Of a stretch of DNA of 64,000 nt, positions 19,521 through 30,422 are shown piece after piece. The first letter of the stretch is position 1. Each line of letters starts with the position of its first letter. Under the pieces are notes generated by a model. It saw nothing but the letters and a program-made list of their open reading frames with translations, was not told the origin of the DNA and did no database searches. The DNA comes from an uncultured Acetobacteraceae bacterium. Its GTDB lineage: Bacteria > Pseudomonadota > Alphaproteobacteria > Acetobacterales > Acetobacteraceae. Location of the stretch: assembly GCA_937873095.1 (NCBI GenBank), contig CALMVI010000152.1, forward strand, positions 1-64,000, given 5' to 3'. Made by a program: the position numbers and the translations under genes.

Positions 19521-20564
19521 TCACGTCATGTGCTGCAGGTTCAGCACGAAGGCGTGCGACTGGGAGGTGGAGTGGGCGTGCGGCTGGATGGCCAGCGTGC
19601 TGAGCGCATGCTCCGTGCTGGTGGTCACCTTGGTCGAGGCGGAGGCGGCCGTGCTGTGCGCGGCGGTCAGCGAGCCGGCCGTCCAGTCGCTTGCCGAAAG
19701 GGCGGCGGCCCCGTTGAGGGTGGGCGCGGCACTCAGGCCCGACGTGCTGGTGATCGCCGCAGAGCCGCTGACATCGCGCGTGGCAGCGGTGGCGTAGGCG
19801 CGCACCCAGGCGATCTTCATGCTGGCCGGAGCGGTCGAGGTGTCCGCGCCTGGCCAGCTTCCCTGGCCGCCGACGGCCAGGTTCAGGATCATGTACATCG
19901 GCGAGTTCAGGCTGCCGGGCGTGGGGACCGAGACGGTCTTGTGGCCGTCGAAATAGAACGTCGTCGTCGTGGGTTCCCAGTCCACGCCGTAGGTGTGAAA
20001 GCTGGTCGAGACGTTGGGCACGTGAATCGGATTGAAGTTGACGACCCAGTTCGGGCCCGTCTCGCCATGCGTGGTGGAATAGATGGTGTTCGGATCGTTG
20101 CCGAGCTGCTCGAACACGTCGAGCTCGGACGAGTACACGTTGTTCGCCGGCAGCAGCCAGAAGGCTGGCCATAGCCCCTGTCCCGCAGGCAGCTCCGCCC
20201 GGACGGCGAAGTATCCGTAGGTCTGCGCAAACGAGCCGAAGGTGGTGATGGCGCCCGACCGGTACGCCTGCCCTTCCGGCGTGGTGCCGGGAGCGGCCGG
20301 CGTTGCGGTGATCGACAACACGCCGTGCGACACGGAAAACGGATTCTCACCGACCGAGGGATCGGAGTAATACTGCGCCTCGTGATTGCCCCACAGCGTG
20401 CGTCCGTCATCGCCCCAATCGGGCAGCTTGGTCATCCAGCCGACCGACCCGTCCGGCGAGGACTGAAATCCGTTGGTGAATTCATCGTCGAAGGTAAGGT
20501 GCAGCTTGAAGCCGGGCCCGTCGGTATCCGGCGTGCCGTCTGTGCTGGAATTCGGTGTCGACAC
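19521..20564 (-). CDS. Glycoside hydrolase family 16, no signal peptide
   Basis: A 347-aa protein. Residues about 20-262 form a GH16 beta-jelly roll with catalytic signature ELDVFE (E147, D149, E152), GLWPAFWLLP and WEPTTTTFYFDG. This family cleaves beta-1,3/1,4-glucans or bacterial exopolysaccharides by a retaining mechanism. There is no N-terminal signal peptide. The last 85 residues are Ser/Thr/Ala-rich without known repeats. This architecture recalls ExoK/ExsH-type glycanases, where C-terminal type I secretion signals are used, but no type I exporter lies nearby. It is convergent with comM, 11 bases apart. Confidence 0.88.
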   Translation of the reverse strand: MSTPNSSTDGTPDTDGPGFKLHLTFDDEFTNGFQSSPDGSVGWMTKLPDWGDDGRTLWGNHEAQYYSDPSVGENPFSVSHGVLSITATPAAPGTTPEGQAYRSGAITTFGSFAQTYGYFAVRAELPAGQGLWPAFWLLPANNVYSSELDVFEQLGNDPNTIYSTTHGETGPNWVVNFNPIHVPNVSTSFHTYGVDWEPTTTTFYFDGHKTVSVPTPGSLNSPMYMILNLAVGGQGSWPGADTSTAPASMKIAWVRAYATAATRDVSGSAAITSTSGLSAAPTLNGAAALSASDWTAGSLTAAHSTAASASTKVTTSTEHALSTLAIQPHAHSTSQSHAFVLNLQHMT

Positions 20565-20658
20565 AATTGCCCTCGTCTCGAAAAGCGGCCGGCTGGCCGG
20601 TGAGACTTGAGCCTATTCGCGGCAGGTGAACGAAAGGTTCAGGCGGCAACAAACAAGT

Positions 20659-20868
20659 TCAGGTCGGCGCCGCCGCGGCGCCGCAGATTGCATGGCCCGA
20701 CAGCACGCAATCCTGCACGTCTGCTTCTGCTCTCAAGATGTTGATCAGGTACAAGCCGATCACCACGAGAAGAAGCGTCACGGCAAGCCCGGCAAGGCTG
20801 CCCGTTCGTCGCGCGGAAACGTCGTTGGCCGACGCCGCGGAAACCTTCATCGGTCGAGCGCGATGCAT
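20659..20868 (-). CDS. Small single-pass membrane protein
   Basis: A 69-aa protein with a basic N-terminus (MHRARPMKVSAASANDVSARR), one membrane helix (about 24-45, LAGLAVTLLLVVIGLYLI) and a short tail with two cysteines (DCVLSGHAIC) facing the other side, probably the periplasm. The positive-inside pattern and tail look like a genuine small inner-membrane protein. Start could be ATG 20868 or ATG 20850; neither has a clear ribosome site. Function unknown. Confidence 0.55.
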   Translation of the reverse strand: MHRARPMKVSAASANDVSARRTGSLAGLAVTLLLVVIGLYLINILRAEADVQDCVLSGHAICGAAAAPT

Positions 20869-20997
20869 GTGGTTGCCGGATGCAGGCGTTGATCCGCTCA
20901 AGATGTTTTCGCCGACAGCGCAATGCAAGCAGGATCGGTCAGCCAACCGTCCGCCGACCGGCAGCGATGTCCGCGCAGGTGGCGCGCCGCAACCGGC

Positions 20998-21761
20998 TCA
21001 AGCCGCCAGGAAATCTTCTGCAAGCTTGCCGAAAGCGTCCGGCTGGTCGGCGTGCAGCCAGTGTCCGGCATCGGCCAGGTGCACGATGTCTGCCGCCGGA
21101 AACAGCATCCGGGTCGCGGCGCGGTGCGCCTGCTGGATGTAATCCGAGCGCTCCCCGGCGATGAACAGCGCGGGACCAGGGTAGCGCGGATCGCCGGGCA
21201 AGTCCGGCCAGCCTTCGATGTCGGCGATGCCCTCGGCGATGTGGTCCAGTCCGATCCGCCACGACGGCCGAGGTCCGAAAGCGAGGTTCTGCAACAGGAA
21301 CGCCCTGACCCCGGCCTCGGGCACCGCATCGGCCAGGGCGGCTTCGGCCTGCCGACGGTCCAGCCCCGGGCGAAGTTCCAGCCGCATCATCGCGCGCGCG
21401 ACGCGGCCGTTGTGATGGGCGTAGGCCACCGGCGCGATGTCGGCGATGGCGAGGCGCGAGACCAGGGAGGGCGCCTGCAGGGCCGCAACCATGGCGACCT
21501 TGCCGCCATCGAGTGGCCGAGCAGGCGGACGGGCAGGGCGCCGAGCGCGGCCAGGGTCTCGATCACGTCCTGCGCGAGCGCCGGGTAGCCCATGCCCGGC
21601 GCGTGCGGGCTGTCGCCGTGGTTGCGCAGGTCCGGCGACAGCACGCGGAACCGGGCTGACAGTCGGCGGGCCAGGCCCGCGAGGTTCTGCGCGCGCCCGA
21701 ACAGCCCGTGCAGCAGGCAGACCGGCGGGCCCTGGCCCCGCTCGGCCGCATGCAGGATCAT
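20998..21761 (-). pseudogene. Alpha/beta hydrolase, one-base frameshift at the nucleophile elbow
   Basis: The gene starts at ATG 21761, overlapping the oxidoreductase stop (ATGA). It encodes CLLHGLFGRAQNLAGLARRL, SPDLRNHGDS and VRLLGHSM, then loses frame near 21506. A different frame continues directly with GGKVAMVAALQAP, ADIAPVAYAHHNG, ERSDYI and DAGHWLHADQP to a stop at 20998. Adding one G in the ATGGCGG run restores GHSMGGKVAM, the usual nucleophile elbow, and a 254-aa protein of normal length (YbfF/epoxide-hydrolase-like). Ser, Asp and His regions are otherwise present. It is therefore either a recent inactivation or an assembly error. Confidence 0.85.
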
Positions 21762-22768
21762 CCCCGGCCCGTCAGCGTCAGCACGATCTTGCCGATATGC
21801 GCGCTGCTCTCCATCAGCGCGTGGGCGTCGGCCACCCTGTCGAGCGGGAACACGCCGTGGATGACCGGCGCGCACTGGCCCGCATCCAGCTTGGGCCATA
21901 GCTGGGCGAGCAAGGCCGCGGCGATCTCGCCCTTCTCAGCCCGGGTGCGCGGCCGCATGGTGGAGCCGGTGATCGTCAGCCGCTTCATCATGACGAGCCG
22001 GATGTCGAGCTCCGGGTCGCGCGTGCCGCCCTGCACGGCGATGACGACGAGCCTGCCATCCTGGGCCAGGACATGGGTGTTGCGCGACAGATAGGGTCCG
22101 GCGACCATGTCGAGCACCACATCGACGCCCCGTCCGCCGGTCAGCGCCAGGGTGCGGGCGACGAAGTCTTCCTGCCGGTAGTCGATCGCCGCTTCTGCGC
22201 CGAGTTCGACGCAGGCGCGGCATTTTTCCGCAGAGCCGGCAGTGGCCAACGGGCGCGCCCCGAAGGCGCGGGCAAGCTGGATGGCCGTGGTGCCGATGCC
22301 GCTGCTGCCGCCATGCACCAGCACGCTCTGCCCGGACGACAGGCGGCCCAGTCCGAACATGTTGGCCCACACGGTAAAGGTCGTTTCCGGCAGCGCCGCG
22401 CTGCGCACCGCGTCGTAGCCGCGCGGCCATGGCAGGCACTGGACCGCCGGCGCCACGCAGTACTCGGCATAGCCGCCGCCGTTGACCAGCGCGCAGACCG
22501 GTTCGCCAGGCCGCAGGCCGGTCACGCCTTCGCCCAGGGCCGCCACTTCGCCCGCCACCTCGAGCCCGAGCACCGGGCTTGCGTCGCCGGGCGGCGGGTA
22601 TAGTCCGCGGCGCTGCGCCACGTCCGGCCGGTTGACCCCGGCCGCGTCGACCCGGATCAGCACCTCGCCCGCGCCCGGGCGGGGCAGGTCGGCCTGCTCG
22701 ACATGCATCACCTCCGGGCCGCCCGGCTCGGCCACAGCCACCCGGCGCATGGTGTGCGGAAGGCTCAC
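21758..22768 (-). CDS. Zinc-independent NAD(P)H quinone oxidoreductase (PIG3/QOR type, MDR family)
   Basis: A 336-aa medium-chain reductase. The N-terminal GroES-like part has VDAAGVNRPDVAQRRGLYPPP and LGLEVAGEVAALG without the zinc cysteines. The Rossmann part has VLVHGGSSGIGTTAIQLA, then AGSAEKCRACVELGA and STMRPRTRAEK, which are PIG3/TP53I3-like. It likely reduces quinones or enals with NADPH. GTG 22768 is chosen because it overlaps the stop of the 44-aa gene upstream (GTGA); ATG 22750 is the alternative. The downstream hydrolase overlaps its stop in the same way, giving a tightly coupled three-gene operon. Confidence 0.88.
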   Translation of the reverse strand: MSLPHTMRRVAVAEPGGPEVMHVEQADLPRPGAGEVLIRVDAAGVNRPDVAQRRGLYPPPGDASPVLGLEVAGEVAALGEGVTGLRPGEPVCALVNGGGYAEYCVAPAVQCLPWPRGYDAVRSAALPETTFTVWANMFGLGRLSSGQSVLVHGGSSGIGTTAIQLARAFGARPLATAGSAEKCRACVELGAEAAIDYRQEDFVARTLALTGGRGVDVVLDMVAGPYLSRNTHVLAQDGRLVVIAVQGGTRDPELDIRLVMMKRLTITGSTMRPRTRAEKGEIAAALLAQLWPKLDAGQCAPVIHGVFPLDRVADAHALMESSAHIGKIVLTLTGRG

Positions 22769-22899
22769 GCCTGCAGCGGCGTGGGCGGCGGGTCGGCGGG
22801 CACCCCGATCGGGTCCGACGGCTCCTCGATCGGCACGGGCAGGTCGGGATCGGGGAAGTCCGCCGGGATGGGCGGCGGCGGGTCGGCGGGAATCTGCAT
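22765..22899 (-). CDS. 44-aa proline-rich small protein heading an overlapping operon
   Basis: A short gene read from ATG 22899: it begins MQIPADPPPPIPADFPD and ends IGVPADPPPTPLQA. About 40 percent of residues are proline, with repeated PADPPP and acidic residues and no basic ones. A strong GAGGGA ribosome site lies 2-4 bases upstream. The stop TGA overlaps the GTG start of the quinone oxidoreductase. No signal peptide or helix is predicted. It may be a leader-like peptide or a small acidic scaffold; function is unknown. Confidence 0.6.
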   Translation of the reverse strand: MQIPADPPPPIPADFPDPDLPVPIEEPSDPIGVPADPPPTPLQA

Positions 22900-23008
22900 G
22901 GTCCCTCAACATCGCCGGCGGGGAGCGGTTGCGGCACCCTGCCCGCCAGGTCTAGCACGGGTCCGGGTCACCGCTCCCCGCACGGGTGGCCCGCTTGGAC
23001 CAACCACG

Positions 23009-24814
23009 ATGCCGCCCAGTTCCACCCTGTCCGGGCGCGCGGCCCTGCTGCTGCGCCGGCGCCGTGTCGGCGACCTTGCGATGCAGGCGCCGCAGGCGTT
23101 GCGCGCGCTGGTGCGCGGCAACGAGGTGTGGCTGGTGCTGCTGGCGGCCGTGCTCGGCCTGGCGGCGGGGCTGCTGGTCGTGGCGATGAACCAGGCGACG
23201 CAGCTGGCGCATGAGTGGCTGTTCGCCCTGCCGGCGGGGCAGCGCCTGTCCGGCCAGGCGCATCTGGTCGGCTGGCGCGCGCTGGCGGTGCCGTGCGGAG
23301 GCGGCCTGTGCGTCGGCCTGCTTGCCTGGTCGCTGGCGCGCTGGCGGCCCGCCCGCACGGTGGACCCGATCGAGGCCAACGCGTTGTACGGCGGCAAGAT
23401 GTCGCTCAACGACAGCCTGGTGGTCGTGGCGCAGACCGTGCTGAGCAACGGCGTGGGCGCGTCGGTTGGGCTGGAGGCGGGATACACGCAGATCGGGTCG
23501 GCGATCGCGTCCCGCACCGGCCGCCTGTTCAGGGTGCGCCGCGCGGATCTGAGGCTGCTGGTCGGGTGCGGCGCGGCCGGCGCCATCGCCAGCGCGTTCA
23601 ATGCGCCCCTGACCGGCGCGTTCTACGCCTTCGAGCTGGTGATCGGCACGTATTCGCTGGCCAGCCTGCCGCCGGTGGTCGCGTCGGCCATCAGCGCCGT
23701 CATGGTGCAGCGCTGGATCCTGGGCAACGAGCCGGGCTACGACGTGGCCTTGCCCGCAGGCCTGGACACCGTCGACTTCATCCCGGTTCTTGCCCTGGGC
23801 ATACTGTGCGCGCTGTGCGGCATCGCCATCATGTACAGCGTCACCGTGACCGAGCAGGCGTTCACCCGCAGCCGCGTCCCGCTCTGGCTGCGTCCGGCGA
23901 TCGGCGGGCTTGCGGTCGGCTCCTTGGCGCTGTCCACCCCGGCGGTGCTGGGCGCCGGGCACGGGGCGTTGCGCGCCAGCCTGACGGCCGAGCTGCCGCT
24001 GGGCACGCTGGTCATGCTGCTGGGGTGCAAGGCAGCGGCGTCCGCGATCTCGCTCGGTTCGGGGTTCCGCGGCGGGCTGTTCTTCGCCTCGCTGTTCCTG
24101 GGCGCCATGCTCGGCAAGGCGTTCGCGGCGGTCATGCTGCTTGCCTGGCCGGTGCCGGTGTTCCCCGACGCCGTCTATGGCCTCATCGGCATGAGCGGCA
24201 TGGCGGTGGCCATCGTGGGCGGGCCGTTGACGATGACGTTCCTCGCACTCGAGAGCACCGGCAGCCTGCCGGTGACGGTCGCCGTGCTGGCAGCGGCCGT
24301 GATCTCGTCGCTGACGGTGCGGCGCACCTTCGGCTACTCTTTCGCCACCTGGCGGTTCCACCTGCGGGGCGAGAGCATACGCAGCGCGGTCGATATCGGC
24401 TGGATGCGCAACCTGACCGTCGGCCGGATGATGCGTCGCGACATCCGCACCGTGCGCTCGGACATGAGCGTGGCGGCGTTTCGCCGCGCCTACCCCCTGG
24501 GCTCGGCCAGCCGCGTCGTCGCGGTGGACGAGCAGGACCGTTATGCGGGGATCGTGTGGGTGGCCGACGCCCATGCGGCCGAGCTGCCCGTCAGCGGAGT
24601 GAGCGAGCTGCTGCACCACGCCGGCAGCGTGCTGACGGCGGAGATGACGGTCAAGGAGGCGGCGACCGTGTTCGAGCAGGCCGAAGCGGACGCGCTGGCG
24701 GTGGTCGACGGGGTGCAGACGCTTCGGGTGATCGGCCTGCTGACCGAGCAGTTCGCTTTGCGGCGGTATAGCGAGGAACTGGAGCGGCGGCGGCGGGACC
24801 TGAGCGGGGAGTGA
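23009..24814 (+). CDS. ClC-type chloride channel/antiporter with CBS domains
   Basis: A 601-aa inner-membrane protein. Helices span residues about 35-450. ClC landmarks are present: the NGVGASVGLEAGYTQIGS loop with the gating-glutamate position (GLEA, replacing the usual GREGP), FNAPLTGAFYAFE and GSGFRGGLFFASLFLG (usual GxFxP replaced by GLFFA). The C-terminal 170 residues hold a pair of CBS-like repeats (VGRMMRRDIRTVRSD, then VLTAEMTVKEAATVFEQ). The family exchanges Cl- for H+. ATG 23009 is chosen because the open frame upstream is antisense to the oxidoreductase operon. It is divergent from that operon. Confidence 0.88.
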   Translation: MPPSSTLSGRAALLLRRRRVGDLAMQAPQALRALVRGNEVWLVLLAAVLGLAAGLLVVAMNQATQLAHEWLFALPAGQRLSGQAHLVGWRALAVPCGGGLCVGLLAWSLARWRPARTVDPIEANALYGGKMSLNDSLVVVAQTVLSNGVGASVGLEAGYTQIGSAIASRTGRLFRVRRADLRLLVGCGAAGAIASAFNAPLTGAFYAFELVIGTYSLASLPPVVASAISAVMVQRWILGNEPGYDVALPAGLDTVDFIPVLALGILCALCGIAIMYSVTVTEQAFTRSRVPLWLRPAIGGLAVGSLALSTPAVLGAGHGALRASLTAELPLGTLVMLLGCKAAASAISLGSGFRGGLFFASLFLGAMLGKAFAAVMLLAWPVPVFPDAVYGLIGMSGMAVAIVGGPLTMTFLALESTGSLPVTVAVLAAAVISSLTVRRTFGYSFATWRFHLRGESIRSAVDIGWMRNLTVGRMMRRDIRTVRSDMSVAAFRRAYPLGSASRVVAVDEQDRYAGIVWVADAHAAELPVSGVSELLHHAGSVLTAEMTVKEAATVFEQAEADALAVVDGVQTLRVIGLLTEQFALRRYSEELERRRRDLSGE

Positions 24815-24854
24815 TCGGGCGCGTCCCGACGGCCAGGCTTTCTGCTCTGTCGGC

Positions 24855-25171
24855 CTATCGATCCGTTTCCGCAACTTTGTCGAGGCTGCGCCGAAACTCC
24901 TCGTATAAAGAGCGCTCACGCCTCGTCGCCTGGCGCACGGAAATCAGCCTGATGTCGCCCCTCGGCTCGTATGGGTTACGTTGACGACGACCTGCTCGCC
25001 CATCTCGCCAAGCGAATTTATACGAACTTCGCTATAGTTTCTGCGATCGTCCACCCGGCTGAGCATCGGACCGGCGAACACCCGCACAGCGTCACGGAAG
25101 TCGATCCCGTGCGTGCGCATGTTGGCGTGATTTTTCGCCTCGTCCCACTGAAAGCCGCGTGGAAACGCCAC
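24855..25171 (-). pseudogene. brnT: BrnT-like ribonuclease toxin, one-base frameshift near the C-terminus
   Basis: From GTG 25171 the frame gives GFQWDEAKNHANMRTHGIDF, DAVRVFAGPMLSRVDDRR and VRINSLGEMGEQVVVNVTHT, a clear BrnT. It then runs into a stop at 24944. Reading one base shifted after the CCCC at 24958-24961 gives DIRLISVRQATRRERSLYEEF, the expected BrnT C-terminus, ending at 24855. One extra C would restore about 105 aa. BrnT is an RNase toxin of type II systems. It follows the BrnA-like gene by three bases, the reverse of the usual toxin-first order. Confidence 0.8.
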
Positions 25172-25174
25172 GGC

Positions 25175-25357
25175 TCATCGCTTGATGGCGGTGTCGGGCT
25201 TGTATTCGCGGCGCATCTCCTCGTCCGACAGGATCGGCGCTGCGTCGGGGTCGTGGACCACAGCTTGTGCAATCTCGGCGTCGGTCATCTTTCGAAGCCG
25301 ATCCCAATCTGTCCTGCCCTCCGGTTTGTCTTCGACCCGCTCGCCTTGCTGTTGCAT
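25175..25357 (-). CDS. Short BrnA-like antitoxin fragment
   Basis: A 60-aa protein (MQQQGERVEDKPEGRTDWDRL...) with the DWDRLRKMTDAEIAQAV and HDPDAAPILSDEE segments that open BrnA/DUF4415-type antitoxins. It stops after EYKPDTAIKR, before any ribbon-helix-helix DNA-binding part, so it either lost its C-terminal domain or belongs to a short subclass. A textbook ribosome site, AAGGAG, lies six bases before ATG 25357. It precedes the brnT-like gene and is presumably co-transcribed. It could still bind the toxin, but self-repression by DNA binding is not expected. Confidence 0.65.
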   Translation of the reverse strand: MQQQGERVEDKPEGRTDWDRLRKMTDAEIAQAVVHDPDAAPILSDEEMRREYKPDTAIKR

Positions 25358-25533
25358 GTCGCTCTCCTTCAGCCGTGCATCGTATCAGCGCTGGACCGGA
25401 TCGTCATGACCGCGTCCGTCCGCCCAGTCCCCGCGTGGCCGATCCGACGCGAGAAAGCGCCGTGTTCGCGCATTCCTTGACACGCCCCCGCCCTGGCGTG
25501 TTCATCCGGCACCTCGTCCGGATCGTGACCTCC

Positions 25534-26325
25534 ATGCCTGCTTCGCAAAAAATCGTCCGCGCCAAAGCCGCCAAGCCGCAGGCCGGCGGCATCCTGGAGA
25601 CCGTCAAGACGCTGGTCTATGCCGGGCTGATCGCGCTCGGCATACGCACGGTCGCGTTCGAGCCGTTCAACATTCCGTCCGGGTCGATGATCCCGACCCT
25701 GCTGATCGGCGACTTCGTCTTCGTCAGCAAGTTCAGCTACGGCTACTCCCATTTCTCCGCGCCGTTCGCGCCGCCGCTGTTCTCCGGGCGCGTCCTCGGC
25801 TCCTACCCGCATCGCGGCGACGTGGTGGTGTTCCGCAACACGCGCAACACCAGCGAGGACTGGATCAAGCGGGTGATCGGGCTGCCGGGCGACCGCATCC
25901 AGGTCAAGCAGGGCCAGCTCTACATCAACGGCGCCGAGGTGCCGCGAACGCTGGTGACCGACGACTACAGGACCGACGAGGAGGGCGGCGCGGTCAGCCA
26001 CGAATACCTCGAAGCGCTGCCCAGCGGCCCCAGGCACGACCTGCTCAAGCAGAGCGACGAACACATCTTCGGCGACCCCGACTTCGACCCGAACAACACC
26101 GACGAGTACGTGGTCCCGGACGGCCACCTGTTCATGATGGGCGACAACCGCGACAACTCGGCCGACAGCCGCTTCATGAACGGCCTGGGCTTCGTGCCGC
26201 TGGAGAACGTGATCGGCCGCGCGCAGTTCATCTTCTTCAGCTTCGATGCCGAGCACCCGTGGTGGCAATTCTGGCAGTGGCCGATGGAGGTCCGCTGGAG
26301 CAGGCTGCTGAAAGGCGTGGATTGA
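25534..26325 (+). CDS. lepB: Signal peptidase I
   Basis: A 263-aa S26 peptidase. One N-terminal membrane helix (about residues 20-38) is followed by box B NIPSGSMIPTL with catalytic Ser51, box D DWIKRVIGLPGD with Lys112 and box E GDNRDNSADSR. It cleaves signal peptides at the periplasmic face of the inner membrane. It is the first gene of lepB-rnc-era-recO, and the rnc start overlaps its stop codon. ATG 25534 is preferred; GTG 25525 is also in frame. Confidence 0.95.
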   Translation: MPASQKIVRAKAAKPQAGGILETVKTLVYAGLIALGIRTVAFEPFNIPSGSMIPTLLIGDFVFVSKFSYGYSHFSAPFAPPLFSGRVLGSYPHRGDVVVFRNTRNTSEDWIKRVIGLPGDRIQVKQGQLYINGAEVPRTLVTDDYRTDEEGGAVSHEYLEALPSGPRHDLLKQSDEHIFGDPDFDPNNTDEYVVPDGHLFMMGDNRDNSADSRFMNGLGFVPLENVIGRAQFIFFSFDAEHPWWQFWQWPMEVRWSRLLKGVD

Positions 26326-27074
26326 CGGGAGCCGGCGACGGCGCCCAGCAGCGGCTGCAGCAGGCCGAAGAGCTGCTCGGCCATCGGTTTGCCCAGCCCG
26401 GCCTGCTGGCCGAAGCGCTGACCCATCGCTCCGCCGCGTCCGGCCGGGCTGCCGGGCGAACTGCCGGCCGAGCTGCCGGGCAACGCCGGCGCCTGCCGAA
26501 ATCGACCGGTGCCGGCTCCAACGAACGGCTGGAGTTCATCGGCGACCGGGTGCTGGGGCTGGTGGTGGCCGAGTGGGTCGCCGAACGATTTCCCGCCGAG
26601 CAGGAAGGCGAACTCGGCCCGCGCCACGCCCAACTGGTGTCGCGCGAGGCGGTGTGCGCGGTGGCCGAGCGCATCGGGCTCGCCGGCGTGCTCTCGCTCG
26701 GGTCGAACGAGGCGCTGGCGGGCGTGGGCCGGCTGGCGACCGTTCTGGCGGACGCGCTGGAGGCGGCGATCGGCGCGCTGCACCTCGATGGCGGGCTGGA
26801 TGCCGCCAGGCGCTTCATCCGACGCACCTGGGCGCCGCTGCTGGAGGCGCAGGTCAGGCCGCCCAAGGATCCGAAGACCGCGCTGCAGGAACGCGTGCTG
26901 GCGCATGGCGAGACCTTGCCCGCGTATCGCGTGGTCTCTCGCGAGGGTCCCTCGCACGCGCCGCACTTCGTCGTCGAAGCGACCGCGCGCGGGCAGGTGG
27001 GCAGCGGCCAGGGCAGCACCAAGCGGCTCGCCGAACGCGCGGCCGCCGCCGACCTGCTCGGCAAGCTCCTGTGA
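26322..27074 (+). CDS. rnc: Ribonuclease III
   Basis: A 250-aa double-strand-specific RNase. The nuclease domain has EALTHRSA, the signature NERLEFIGDRVLGLV with catalytic E71 and D75, and VLADALEAAIGAL. The C-terminal dsRNA-binding domain follows (KTALQERVLAHG ... ERAAAADLLGKLL). Translation starts at TTG 26322, overlapping the lepB stop (TTGA). Between HRSA and NERLEF is an unusually long basic Gly/Arg/Ala insert (about residues 39-66) encoded by imperfect 12-bp repeats; the family usually has 4-12 residues there. Confidence 0.93.
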   Translation: MTGAGDGAQQRLQQAEELLGHRFAQPGLLAEALTHRSAASGRAAGRTAGRAAGQRRRLPKSTGAGSNERLEFIGDRVLGLVVAEWVAERFPAEQEGELGPRHAQLVSREAVCAVAERIGLAGVLSLGSNEALAGVGRLATVLADALEAAIGALHLDGGLDAARRFIRRTWAPLLEAQVRPPKDPKTALQERVLAHGETLPAYRVVSREGPSHAPHFVVEATARGQVGSGQGSTKRLAERAAAADLLGKLL

Positions 27075-27973
27075 GCGCCGCCGGCAGCCGCTGCGGCTTC
27101 GTGGCCATCGTGGGGGCGCCCAACGCCGGAAAATCCACGCTGCTGAACCGCATGACCGGTGCGAAGCTGTCGATCGTCAGCCCCAAGGCGCAGACCACGC
27201 GGTTCCGTGTGCTGGGCATCCTGCTGCGCGGGCCGGCGCAGATCCTGCTTGTCGATACGCCCGGGATCTTCGCCCCGCGGCGCAAGCTGGACCGGGCGAT
27301 GGTCAATGCGGCCTGGACCGGTTCGGATGATGCGGACCTGACCCTGTTCCTGGTCGACGCACGCGCCGGCCTGACCGAGCAGGTGGGCACGATCGCCGGC
27401 CGGCTTGGCGCCGCATCGCGCCGCTGCTGGCTGGTGCTGAACAAGGTCGACCTGGTGCCGCGCCTGCGCCTGCTGCCGCTGACCGCGGCGCTGGCCGGGC
27501 TGGCCCCGTTCGAGCAGACCTTCATGGTCAGCGCCGCCAACGGCGACGGGGTCGCCGACCTGATGGACGCGGTGGCGCAGGCGCTGCCGGAAGGGCCGCA
27601 TCTGTATCCGGACGACGAGATCACCGACCTGCCGGACAGGATGCTGGCCGCCGAGATCGTGCGCGAGCAGGTGTTCCTGCAGACGCATGAGGAGGTCCCC
27701 TACGGCACCACCGTGGAGACGGAGAGTTTCGCCGAGCGGCCGGACGGCTCTGTGCGCATCGACGCCACGATCTACGTCGCGCGCGCCGGCCAGAAAGCCA
27801 TCCTCATCGGCGAGCGCGGGGCGCGGGTGCGCGACATCGGCGCCCGCGCGCGCTCGCATCTGGCGCAGCTGCTGGACCGGCCGGTCCACCTGTTCCTCAA
27901 CGTCAAGGAACGCTCCGGCTGGGACGAGGAACGGGCACGCCTGCGCGCGATCGGGCTGGACGATCCGGACTGA
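27071..27973 (+). CDS. era: GTPase Era
   Basis: A 300-aa ribosome-assembly GTPase. G-motifs are GAPNAGKS (15-22), the SPKAQTTR switch I, DTPG (62-65) and NKVD (124-127). The C-terminal KH domain shows VRDIGARARSHLAQLL and ERSGWDEERARLRAIG. Era binds the 3' end of 16S rRNA during 30S maturation. The start is GTG 27071, overlapping the rnc stop (GTGA), as expected for the coupled lepB-rnc-era operon. Confidence 0.95.
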   Translation: MSAAGSRCGFVAIVGAPNAGKSTLLNRMTGAKLSIVSPKAQTTRFRVLGILLRGPAQILLVDTPGIFAPRRKLDRAMVNAAWTGSDDADLTLFLVDARAGLTEQVGTIAGRLGAASRRCWLVLNKVDLVPRLRLLPLTAALAGLAPFEQTFMVSAANGDGVADLMDAVAQALPEGPHLYPDDEITDLPDRMLAAEIVREQVFLQTHEEVPYGTTVETESFAERPDGSVRIDATIYVARAGQKAILIGERGARVRDIGARARSHLAQLLDRPVHLFLNVKERSGWDEERARLRAIGLDDPD

Positions 27974-28237
27974 GCGGCAGCTGCCGAGTAACTCGACCGG
28001 CCGGCATTCGCCGCCTTCGGCACGCCCGCGCGGGTTGCAGGCTACGCGCGCTCGCAGATTGCCGGCCGTTGGTTCGGCACCATGTGCCTGTCCGAGCCGC
28101 AGGTAGGTCCTCGCTGGCCGACATCGTGACCAGGCCGAACCGGACGGCGAGGCCGCGCTCGGCCAGCGCTACCGGCTGCCGACATGCCCGTCGGGCAGTT
28201 CTGATTTCGCGCGCTGCCTTGACCGGAGGACGGTCCG

Positions 28238-28981
28238 TTGGAGTGGTCTGCCGCAGGCATCGTGCTCTCGGCCGTGCCGTATGGCGAGGGGGACGCGCTG
28301 GCCACCGTGTTCACCGAGGATCACGGCGTGTATCGCGGCTTGGCCAAGGGCGGGCTGTCGCGCGCGCGGGCGGGCGTCTGGCAGGCCGGCAACCTGGTCG
28401 AGCTGCGCTGGGTGGCGCGGCTGCCCGACCAGCTCGGCAGCTTCAGCGGCGAGCTGGTGCATCCTTCCGCGGCGCTGGCCATGCACGATCCGCTCAGGCT
28501 GGCGGTGCTGTCTTCCGCCTGCGCGGTTGCCGAGGGCGCGTTGCCCGAGCGCGAGCCGCAGACGCGCGTCTTCGCCGGGCTGCTGCACCTGATCGTTCAC
28601 CTGGGCGACGGGCTGTCCGGCGTGGCGCCGCTGGCCGCGTGGGAGCTGGGGCTGCTGGCCGAGCTCGGCTACGGGCTGGACCTGTCGGCCTGCGCGGTGA
28701 CGGGCGGCCGCGACGGGCTGGCCTATGTTTCCCCAAAGTCGGGCAGGGCGGTCAGCGAAGCGGGAGCGGGCGAGTGGCGCGACCGGCTGTTGCGCCTGCC
28801 GCCGTTCCTGCACGGCGGCGAGGCCGCGCCCGAGCCGGAAGACCTGCTGCATGGCCTTCGCTTGACCGGGCATTTCCTGGCCAGGAACGTCTTCGGGGTG
28901 CGGCACAGCCCGGTGCCGGCGGCCAGGACCATGCTGGCGGACAGGATCGCCGTGTCGGCGGCAGCGTCGCAGGGGCGGTAA
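28238..28981 (+). CDS. recO: DNA repair protein RecO
   Basis: A 247-aa protein with the RecO N-terminal OB fold (GIVLSAVPYGEGDALATVFTEDHG, GLAKGG) and helical C-terminal domain (WELGLLAELGYGLDLSACAVTG, LRLTGHFLARNVFG). RecO works with RecR to load RecA on SSB-coated single-stranded DNA. The start is TTG 28238, with GGAGG at 28225-28229 eight bases upstream. It follows era after a 264-base gap in which no gene or clear signal was seen, so it may have its own promoter. Confidence 0.93.
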   Translation: MEWSAAGIVLSAVPYGEGDALATVFTEDHGVYRGLAKGGLSRARAGVWQAGNLVELRWVARLPDQLGSFSGELVHPSAALAMHDPLRLAVLSSACAVAEGALPEREPQTRVFAGLLHLIVHLGDGLSGVAPLAAWELGLLAELGYGLDLSACAVTGGRDGLAYVSPKSGRAVSEAGAGEWRDRLLRLPPFLHGGEAAPEPEDLLHGLRLTGHFLARNVFGVRHSPVPAARTMLADRIAVSAAASQGR

Positions 28982-29069
28982 GCCCGCTCTTCGTTTCCGA
29001 GGGTGGACACCCTAGAGCGGTGTTGCTTACATTGGACCGCAGGCGGAAAACGCCGCGGACAAGGGATGG

Positions 29070-30422
29070 ATGACGACCATGAAGCACCTGCTGCTTGCAG
29101 CGACGATGTTGGCCGGATCGGCGTTGGCCGCACAGGCGGATGCGCAGACAGCGGCCGATCTTGGCCGCAGCCTGACGCCGTTGGGCGCGGTCAAGGCCGG
29201 CAACGCCGACGGCACCATCCCTGCGTGGACCGGCGGCCTGACCACCCCGTCCTCGGGCTTCGTGCCCGGCCAGTATCGGGCCGATCCCTTCGCCTCCGAG
29301 CGGCCGCTCTTCGTGATCACGGCGCAGAACGTCGACCGTTATGCCAGCCACATGGCCGACGGCACGGTCGCGATGGTGCGCACCCTGCCTGGCTACCACG
29401 TGGACGTGTATCCGACGCACCGCACGGCAGCCGCGCCGCAATTCATCTACGACAACGCGATCGCCAATGCCGGCCGCGCGCATCTGACCGAAAACGGCCA
29501 GGGCGTCGCGGACGCCAAGCTGTCGATCCCCTTCCCGGTGCCCAAGAACGGCAACGAGGCGATCTGGAACCACATCCTGCGCTGGCGCGGCAGCCAGGTG
29601 CAGCGCACCACCGACAACGCGATCACCACGCCGGGCGGCGACTACTCCGTGACACGCTGGCACGAGCAGATCCTGCTCGCCTACAACTCGCCTGGGCTGG
29701 CCAACCCGGCCAAGTGGGACAGCCTGTTCTGGCAGGAGGTGCAGGAGCCGCCACGCATCGCCGGCCAGCTGACGCTCGTGCGCAGCTACCAGGACCCGTT
29801 CTCGCAGCCGCGCGAAGCCTGGACCTACAACCCAGGCGAGCGCCGCGTCCGCCGTGCGCCGGAGATCAACTACGACACGCCGGTGCAGAACACCGATGGC
29901 TTGGAAACGGTCGACGACTACGACATGTTCAACGGCGCCGTGGACCGCTACAACTGGACGCTGAAGGGGAAGAAGGAAGTCTACATCCCCTACAACACCT
30001 ACAAGATCCAGCAGCCAGGCGTTAAGTACAACGACATCGTCAAGCCAACCGCCGTCAATCCCGACCTGATCCGGTTCGAGTTGCACCGCGTGTGGGTTGT
30101 GGAAGCGACGTTGAAGCCGGGTTTCCGCCACATCTATGCACGCCGGACGTTCTACATCGACGAGGATAGCTGGCAGATCGCCATTGCCGATCGCTACGAC
30201 ACGCGCGGCCAGCTCTGGCGCACGGCGCTCGCCTTCATCGCCGAGGCGCCCGACGTTCCGCTCTGCGGCGCCGACGGGTACGAGTTCATGGACCTGCTGG
30301 CCCGCCGCTACCTGGTGCAGGGCCTGCACAGCCAGGAATCTACGGCGCCGACCTACACGACGACGACGCTGACGCCCGACGATTTCACGCCGGACGCGCT
30401 GCGCCGCGCCGGACGCCGTTAG
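29070..30422 (+). CDS. DUF1329 exported protein
   Basis: A 450-aa protein with a signal peptide (HLLLAATMLAGSALAAQADA). The body is typical of DUF1329: IPAWTGGL early on, NHILRWRGSQV, YSPGLANPAKWDSL-like text, EAWTYNPGERRVRRAPEINYDTP, GLETVDDYDMFNGAVDRYNWTLKGKKE and FYIDEDSWQIAIADRYD. DUF1329 proteins are periplasmic, LolA/LolB-like in fold and often found near MMPL exporters; their role is unsettled. ATG 29070 has AAGGG just upstream; ATG 29079 is also possible. No exporter gene is adjacent. Confidence 0.85.
   Translation: MTTMKHLLLAATMLAGSALAAQADAQTAADLGRSLTPLGAVKAGNADGTIPAWTGGLTTPSSGFVPGQYRADPFASERPLFVITAQNVDRYASHMADGTVAMVRTLPGYHVDVYPTHRTAAAPQFIYDNAIANAGRAHLTENGQGVADAKLSIPFPVPKNGNEAIWNHILRWRGSQVQRTTDNAITTPGGDYSVTRWHEQILLAYNSPGLANPAKWDSLFWQEVQEPPRIAGQLTLVRSYQDPFSQPREAWTYNPGERRVRRAPEINYDTPVQNTDGLETVDDYDMFNGAVDRYNWTLKGKKEVYIPYNTYKIQQPGVKYNDIVKPTAVNPDLIRFELHRVWVVEATLKPGFRHIYARRTFYIDEDSWQIAIADRYDTRGQLWRTALAFIAEAPDVPLCGADGYEFMDLLARRYLVQGLHSQESTAPTYTTTTLTPDDFTPDALRRAGRR

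Follow-up and report, generated by a model that had tools for sequence, protein, structure and literature searches.

A short BrnA-like protein without a recognized DNA-binding domain is encoded ahead of a frame-broken brnT gene in an Acetobacteraceae contig

The window, the whole 64,000-nucleotide stretch of contig CALMVI010000152.1 from an uncultured Acetobacteraceae bacterium that was analysed, contains a small module in which a 60-residue BrnA-like protein is encoded ahead of a brnT toxin gene with a broken reading frame (Table 1). This module is best read, with a probability of roughly 60%, as a rare, antitoxin-first form of the BrnT/BrnA modules that has decayed in this genome and whose antitoxin would lack a DNA-binding domain. 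The antitoxin-first layout without a ribbon-helix-helix (RHH) domain is rare. An earlier note on this DNA had proposed a compact antitoxin subclass rather than a remnant; a second pair, found on a Methylomonas plasmid and containing an intact toxin, supports the subclass, but it has two members only and the local toxin is broken, a feature absent from that note.

Table 1. Features of the BrnA-like/BrnT module and its surroundings (positions in the window).
Feature	Position	Strand	Remarks
Short BrnA-like antitoxin, 60 aa	25175..25357	(-)	ATG start, TGA stop; N-terminal segment and tail, without RHH
Shine-Dalgarno AAGGAG	25364..25369	(-)	6 bases upstream of the short-antitoxin ATG (read in the sequence)
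brnT, first frame, 75 aa	24944..25171	(-)	GTG start; PF04365 positions 1-62 of 77; Thr at the Brucella Lys16 column
brnT, last strand, other frame (DIRLISVRQATRRER...)	24855..24956	(-)	Missing from the first-frame product; carries the Arg72 and Glu78 equivalents
clcA-lepB interval holding the module, 719 bases	24815..25533	.	Same interval 164 bases in G049

The stop codon of the short open reading frame is separated by three bases from the GTG start codon of brnT (25171), and the ribosome site that the earlier note had called perfect is present and strong, six bases before the ATG. The protein follows the pattern TDW..L..MTD.EI..AV..DPDAAPI, with a 19-residue tail after DPDAAP. It has no Pfam match up to E=10, BrnA_antitoxin (PF14384) included, a single NCBIfam hit that lies below the cut-off, and no match in PHROGs or PADLOC. 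A profile of the BrnA N-terminal segment, built from 97 other BrnA rows after removal of the window and Methylomonas rows, scores it at 51.5 bits, compared to 12.9 bits for the top of 2000 shuffles; the rows came from loci gathered with the window antitoxin as query, and the profile therefore leans towards it. Support that is independent of this profile comes from a match to a BrnA-RHH protein (L003) with a genome-wide E of 5.7e-9. This relative itself matches PF14384 weakly with its C-terminal part (E=0.016, below the cut-off). The same segment recurs as the N-terminus of proteins that continue into an RHH or HTH domain. Judged from its sequence, the short protein is the N-terminal half of BrnA, with the N-terminal segment present and the C-terminal RHH absent, as the earlier note had described it.

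No RHH or HTH frame was found at E<=10 on either strand of window positions 20001-30000 with two profiles, and a hidden or frameshifted RHH close to the short reading frame was rejected on this basis. Additionally, the RHH stretches in the RHH profile span about 37 residues, and thus the 19 residues following DPDAAP are too few for this domain. An AlphaFold single-sequence model of the short antitoxin consists of three short helices and is of low confidence (pLDDT 60). A promoter scan at the module found none, and a palindrome scan found weak arms only.

The toxin gene matches PF04365 with an E of 1e-15 (residues 9-71, 58.2 bits against a cut-off of 34.5). It is split over two frames, and the 75-residue reading frame therefore ends early, without the last strand. 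One window frame aligns with residues 2-69 of the Methylomonas toxin (E=2.9e-27) and another with residues 72-91 (E=1.9e-4); the sequence after the break is still conserved (55% identical across 20 residues). A complete BrnT catalytic fold in a single frame is present in Methylomonas and absent from the window. According to the accessible parts of the respective papers, Lys16, His17 and Arg72 of Brucella BrnT are important for toxicity (PMC13284704), and Asp6, Glu7, Lys9, Arg41 and Glu78 for its RNase activity (PMC5086665). Based on residue equivalences from an alignment with 3u97, the window BrnT keeps the Asp6, Glu7, Lys9 and His17 positions and has Thr in place of Lys16, while the equivalents of Arg72 and Glu78 lie only beyond the frame break. 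Among 125 distinct BrnT rows, Lys occupies the Lys16 column in 79 and Thr only in the window toxin; since Lys is not invariant at this column (46 rows differ, 10 of these being gaps), Thr alone is no proof of inactivity. The loss of the last strand to the frame break, together with Thr at Lys16, suggests that, barring an assembly error at the break, the window BrnT product is probably not toxic and this copy probably inactive. A search for a second sequence of the window locus, against which the break could be checked, found none.

The module lies between a gene ending at 24814, which we take to be clcA from its chloride-channel-like sequence, and a gene starting at 25534, presumably lepB. In a genome of the same genus (G049, locus L158), these two genes adjoin with 164 bases between them and the module is absent. 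The G+C content of the module is 60%, versus 70% for the window. The module-free junction and the lower G+C content fit a gain of the module by transfer between clcA and lepB, or else it may have been lost in the sister. Elsewhere in the window's own genome, contig C162 carries a second, complete BrnT (L162:957-1641), which is toxin-first with an RHH-like antitoxin downstream.

The earlier note had suggested a search for short-BrnA/BrnT pairs in the same order, and one independent pair was found. A plasmid search with the short antitoxin gave a single record at E<=0.01, from Methylomonas sp. AM2-LC (CP157007.1). The Methylomonas antitoxin contains 59 residues, is 52% identical to the window antitoxin over aligned positions (the match covers residues 10-53 of 60), and likewise has no PF14384 match up to E=10. 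It ends one base ahead of the ATG of its BrnT, antitoxin-first as in the window, and the BrnT is intact (PF04365 E=2e-27, 95.7 bits, model positions 1-77). With the same two profiles, the 4.1-kb Methylomonas stretch (L032) gave no frame for an RHH or HTH at E<=10. As this arrangement is present at an independent locus beside an intact toxin, truncation of a BrnA in one genome does not by itself explain the short form. The window and Methylomonas toxins pair as sisters in a FastTree tree of 135 toxins with a support of 0.857, for which 66 residues of the window toxin were used; they are 47% identical, and by this measure each of them has equally close or closer counterparts among other BrnTs. 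Support for a single origin of the two toxins is thus modest. The Methylomonas BrnT occupies a 189-residue frame (L032:2164-2730) with a long polar, low-complexity C-terminal tail. Beyond it, on the opposite strand, lies what we take to be an ATPase frame of the conjugation type.

Of 142 genomes of the window's class searched for BrnT with Pfam, 27 had matches, counting that of the window. None of the 60 loci drawn from this search (L096-L155, window excluded) has a BrnA-like frame upstream; downstream, an RHH is found in 26, an HTH in 12, and neither by the profiles in 22, many of which show another antitoxin-like frame by eye. Similarly, among the family loci that best match the Methylomonas toxin (200 genomes; 30 loci including the window, from 30 of 32 match rows read), the 29 other than the window include none with a BrnA-like frame upstream, and have an RHH (14) or an HTH (15) downstream. 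Counts are quoted only from these two sets; the wider census of 145 toxin loci contains duplicates (the window as L001, L035 and L048, L032 again as L047, and several family loci twice).

Searches with the antitoxin, each with the window genome included, gave matches in 32 of 200 genomes of the family (E<=0.01), 10 of 395 of the order (E<=1e-7), 19 of 385 of the class (E<=1e-5) and 3 of 398 of the phylum (E<=1e-5); a search in another class gave matches in 2 of 78 genomes (E<=1e-7). The loci read for the family, phylum and class matches are a subset of the match rows, and new order loci were added to the wider census. Wherever a BrnT is adjacent in the loci read, the order is toxin-first; for some matches, no neighbouring toxin was found or the product is shortened (L055, L057). 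The earlier note had named, as the observation that would count against a subclass, that all close homologues carry a full RHH domain. This does not hold for the Methylomonas antitoxin, the one homologue to match most of the query; all other matches are confined to the N-terminal segment and, with few exceptions, belong to toxin-first BrnAs that carry an RHH or HTH. A pattern scan of genome contigs returned nine loci, all BrnA-RHH, but as it used two short patterns it is weak evidence for rarity. The phylum and class draws contained no visible relatives of Methylomonas, and the rarity therefore applies mainly to the window's own class and family.

In the accessible parts of the literature, BrnT systems are toxin-first with RHH or HTH antitoxins, BrnT-BrnA fusions are also described, and in the Brucella-type module, toxin-first as well, the C-terminal RHH of BrnA controls the operon (PMC11980606); an Acidovorax relative is likewise toxin-first (PMC10714953, in part). 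The classical order given by the earlier note, brnT and then brnA with an RHH, is that of the Brucella type; neither the window nor Methylomonas has the toxin before the antitoxin. The Brucella abortus BrnT/BrnA module (Heaton 2012; known here via citing papers) resembles the window in its PF04365 toxin and two-gene operon, but the window module is antitoxin-first and its antitoxin has no RHH. The HTH antitoxins and the fusions share the N-terminal segment with the window, joined there to another DNA-binding domain; they sit after the toxin and retain that domain, whereas the window antitoxin comes first without it. The small antitoxins PaaA2 and epsilon also have no DNA-binding domain, but they belong to unrelated families and their systems contain a regulator as third gene (PMC5086665, in the part available). 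No linked, separate regulator gene was detected by the RHH and HTH profiles in window positions 20001-30000 or in L032. A description of the antitoxin-first, RHH-less form was not found in the accessible portions of the open-access literature searched; the original Brucella paper (Heaton 2012) was outside this search.

As a variant of this kind, the module would work through the BrnA N-terminal segment, to which the binding and blocking of BrnT is ascribed; the half with the RHH or HTH, which serves dimerisation and promoter binding, is missing. From sequence features we infer neutralisation, toxin binding, translational coupling, the lack of promoter binding and the loss of toxicity in the window copy. 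The antitoxin would be translated first from its strong ribosome site, and the toxin start, 1-3 bases past the antitoxin stop, would couple the two, such that an excess of antitoxin may be set by gene order and not by autorepression. The pair would have been gained between clcA and lepB, or lost in sisters. Because brnT has lost its last strand, the surviving window antitoxin probably serves no protective function, or acts against other BrnTs. A broader proposal, somewhat short of an even chance, is that the BrnA N-terminal segment may be a self-sufficient neutralising module, joined in evolution to an RHH, an HTH or nothing, and that the antitoxin-first form without DNA binding may represent a separate, plasmid-spread BrnT lineage, with the ratio set by gene order and coupling rather than autorepression. 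If true, this would offer a naturally occurring minimal inhibitor of BrnT, some 60 residues long, as well as a BrnT module that dispenses with the usual autorepression and in which the roles of toxin binding and promoter binding could be looked at separately. Such antitoxins are missed by Pfam-based annotation, as they do not match PF14384.

The conserved sequence after the break and the undamaged antitoxin could also indicate that the module is intact and active, with the break introduced during sequencing or assembly. The Lys column is changed too, however, and the analysis gave no independent sign of an error; we consider this reading unlikely, although less so than the others. Slightly less probable is a plain remnant, in which an ordinary BrnTA module has been rearranged, with loss of the RHH half of its BrnA, and is in the course of decay. 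The broken local toxin is in line with a remnant, as is the finding that nearly all other antitoxins with the N-terminal segment follow their toxin and carry an RHH or HTH, but the Methylomonas pair, whose toxin is intact, is alike in gene order, length and close spacing, window positions 20001-30000 hold no trace of an RHH, and a toxin-first module that loses its RHH would still have the antitoxin behind the toxin.

It is more doubtful that the antitoxin has been kept for anti-addiction, that is, to neutralise a BrnT of a plasmid or phage, with its linked toxin dispensable. An intact antitoxin next to a broken toxin would be consistent with such a role, as would a viral contig with a lone RHH-less relative (L221, see below); however, a close relative of this antitoxin that occurs without a toxin, on which selection could be gauged, is not known. 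Least likely, and improbable in our view, is that the short antitoxin relies on a DNA-binding partner supplied in trans, similar to the three-component PaaR-PaaA-ParE and omega-epsilon-zeta systems (PMC5086665, PMC8630535; accessible parts). The complete module on C162 might offer such a partner within the genome, but BrnA would dimerise via the RHH half, which the short form lacks, and no RHH or HTH regulator gene was seen beside the pair in the window or in Methylomonas.

Viral contigs scanned for close relatives of the antitoxin contained none, and the pattern DPDAAPIL..EE gave no match in them. A search for toxin relatives in these contigs returned L074, with no recognised antitoxin, and L075, which was rejected as a chance match. 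A wider antitoxin pattern matched 89 stretches in viral contigs, 80 of which were read; these yielded a single BrnT-RHH pair of the usual kind (L220) and the lone L221. Three BrnT toxins were matched in phage records. The L221 protein (L221:6085-6288, minus strand; viral contig IMGVR_UViG_3300033997_000310) is a BrnA-like protein of 68 residues without an RHH and with a ribosome site; no BrnT was found near it in 11.9 kb, and it is possibly a phage-borne antitoxin against a host BrnT.

Two cyanobacterial plasmids, from Geminocystis (L088:1448-1642) and Synechococcus PCC 6312 (L090:1225-1350), encode short RHH-less proteins after BrnT. They resemble the window antitoxin in length and in having no RHH, and differ in their toxin-first order and their tails. 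Since these antitoxins follow their toxins, the absence of an RHH and the gene order are not always linked. A Euhalothece plasmid protein annotated as BrnT (L091:949-1356) consists of a BrnT minus its last strand fused to an RHH-less BrnA N-terminal segment. Genome G640 contains two BrnTs (L135:694-957 and L141:718-1008), each followed by a short DWxDA-motif protein with a basic tail and no RHH or HTH by the profiles.
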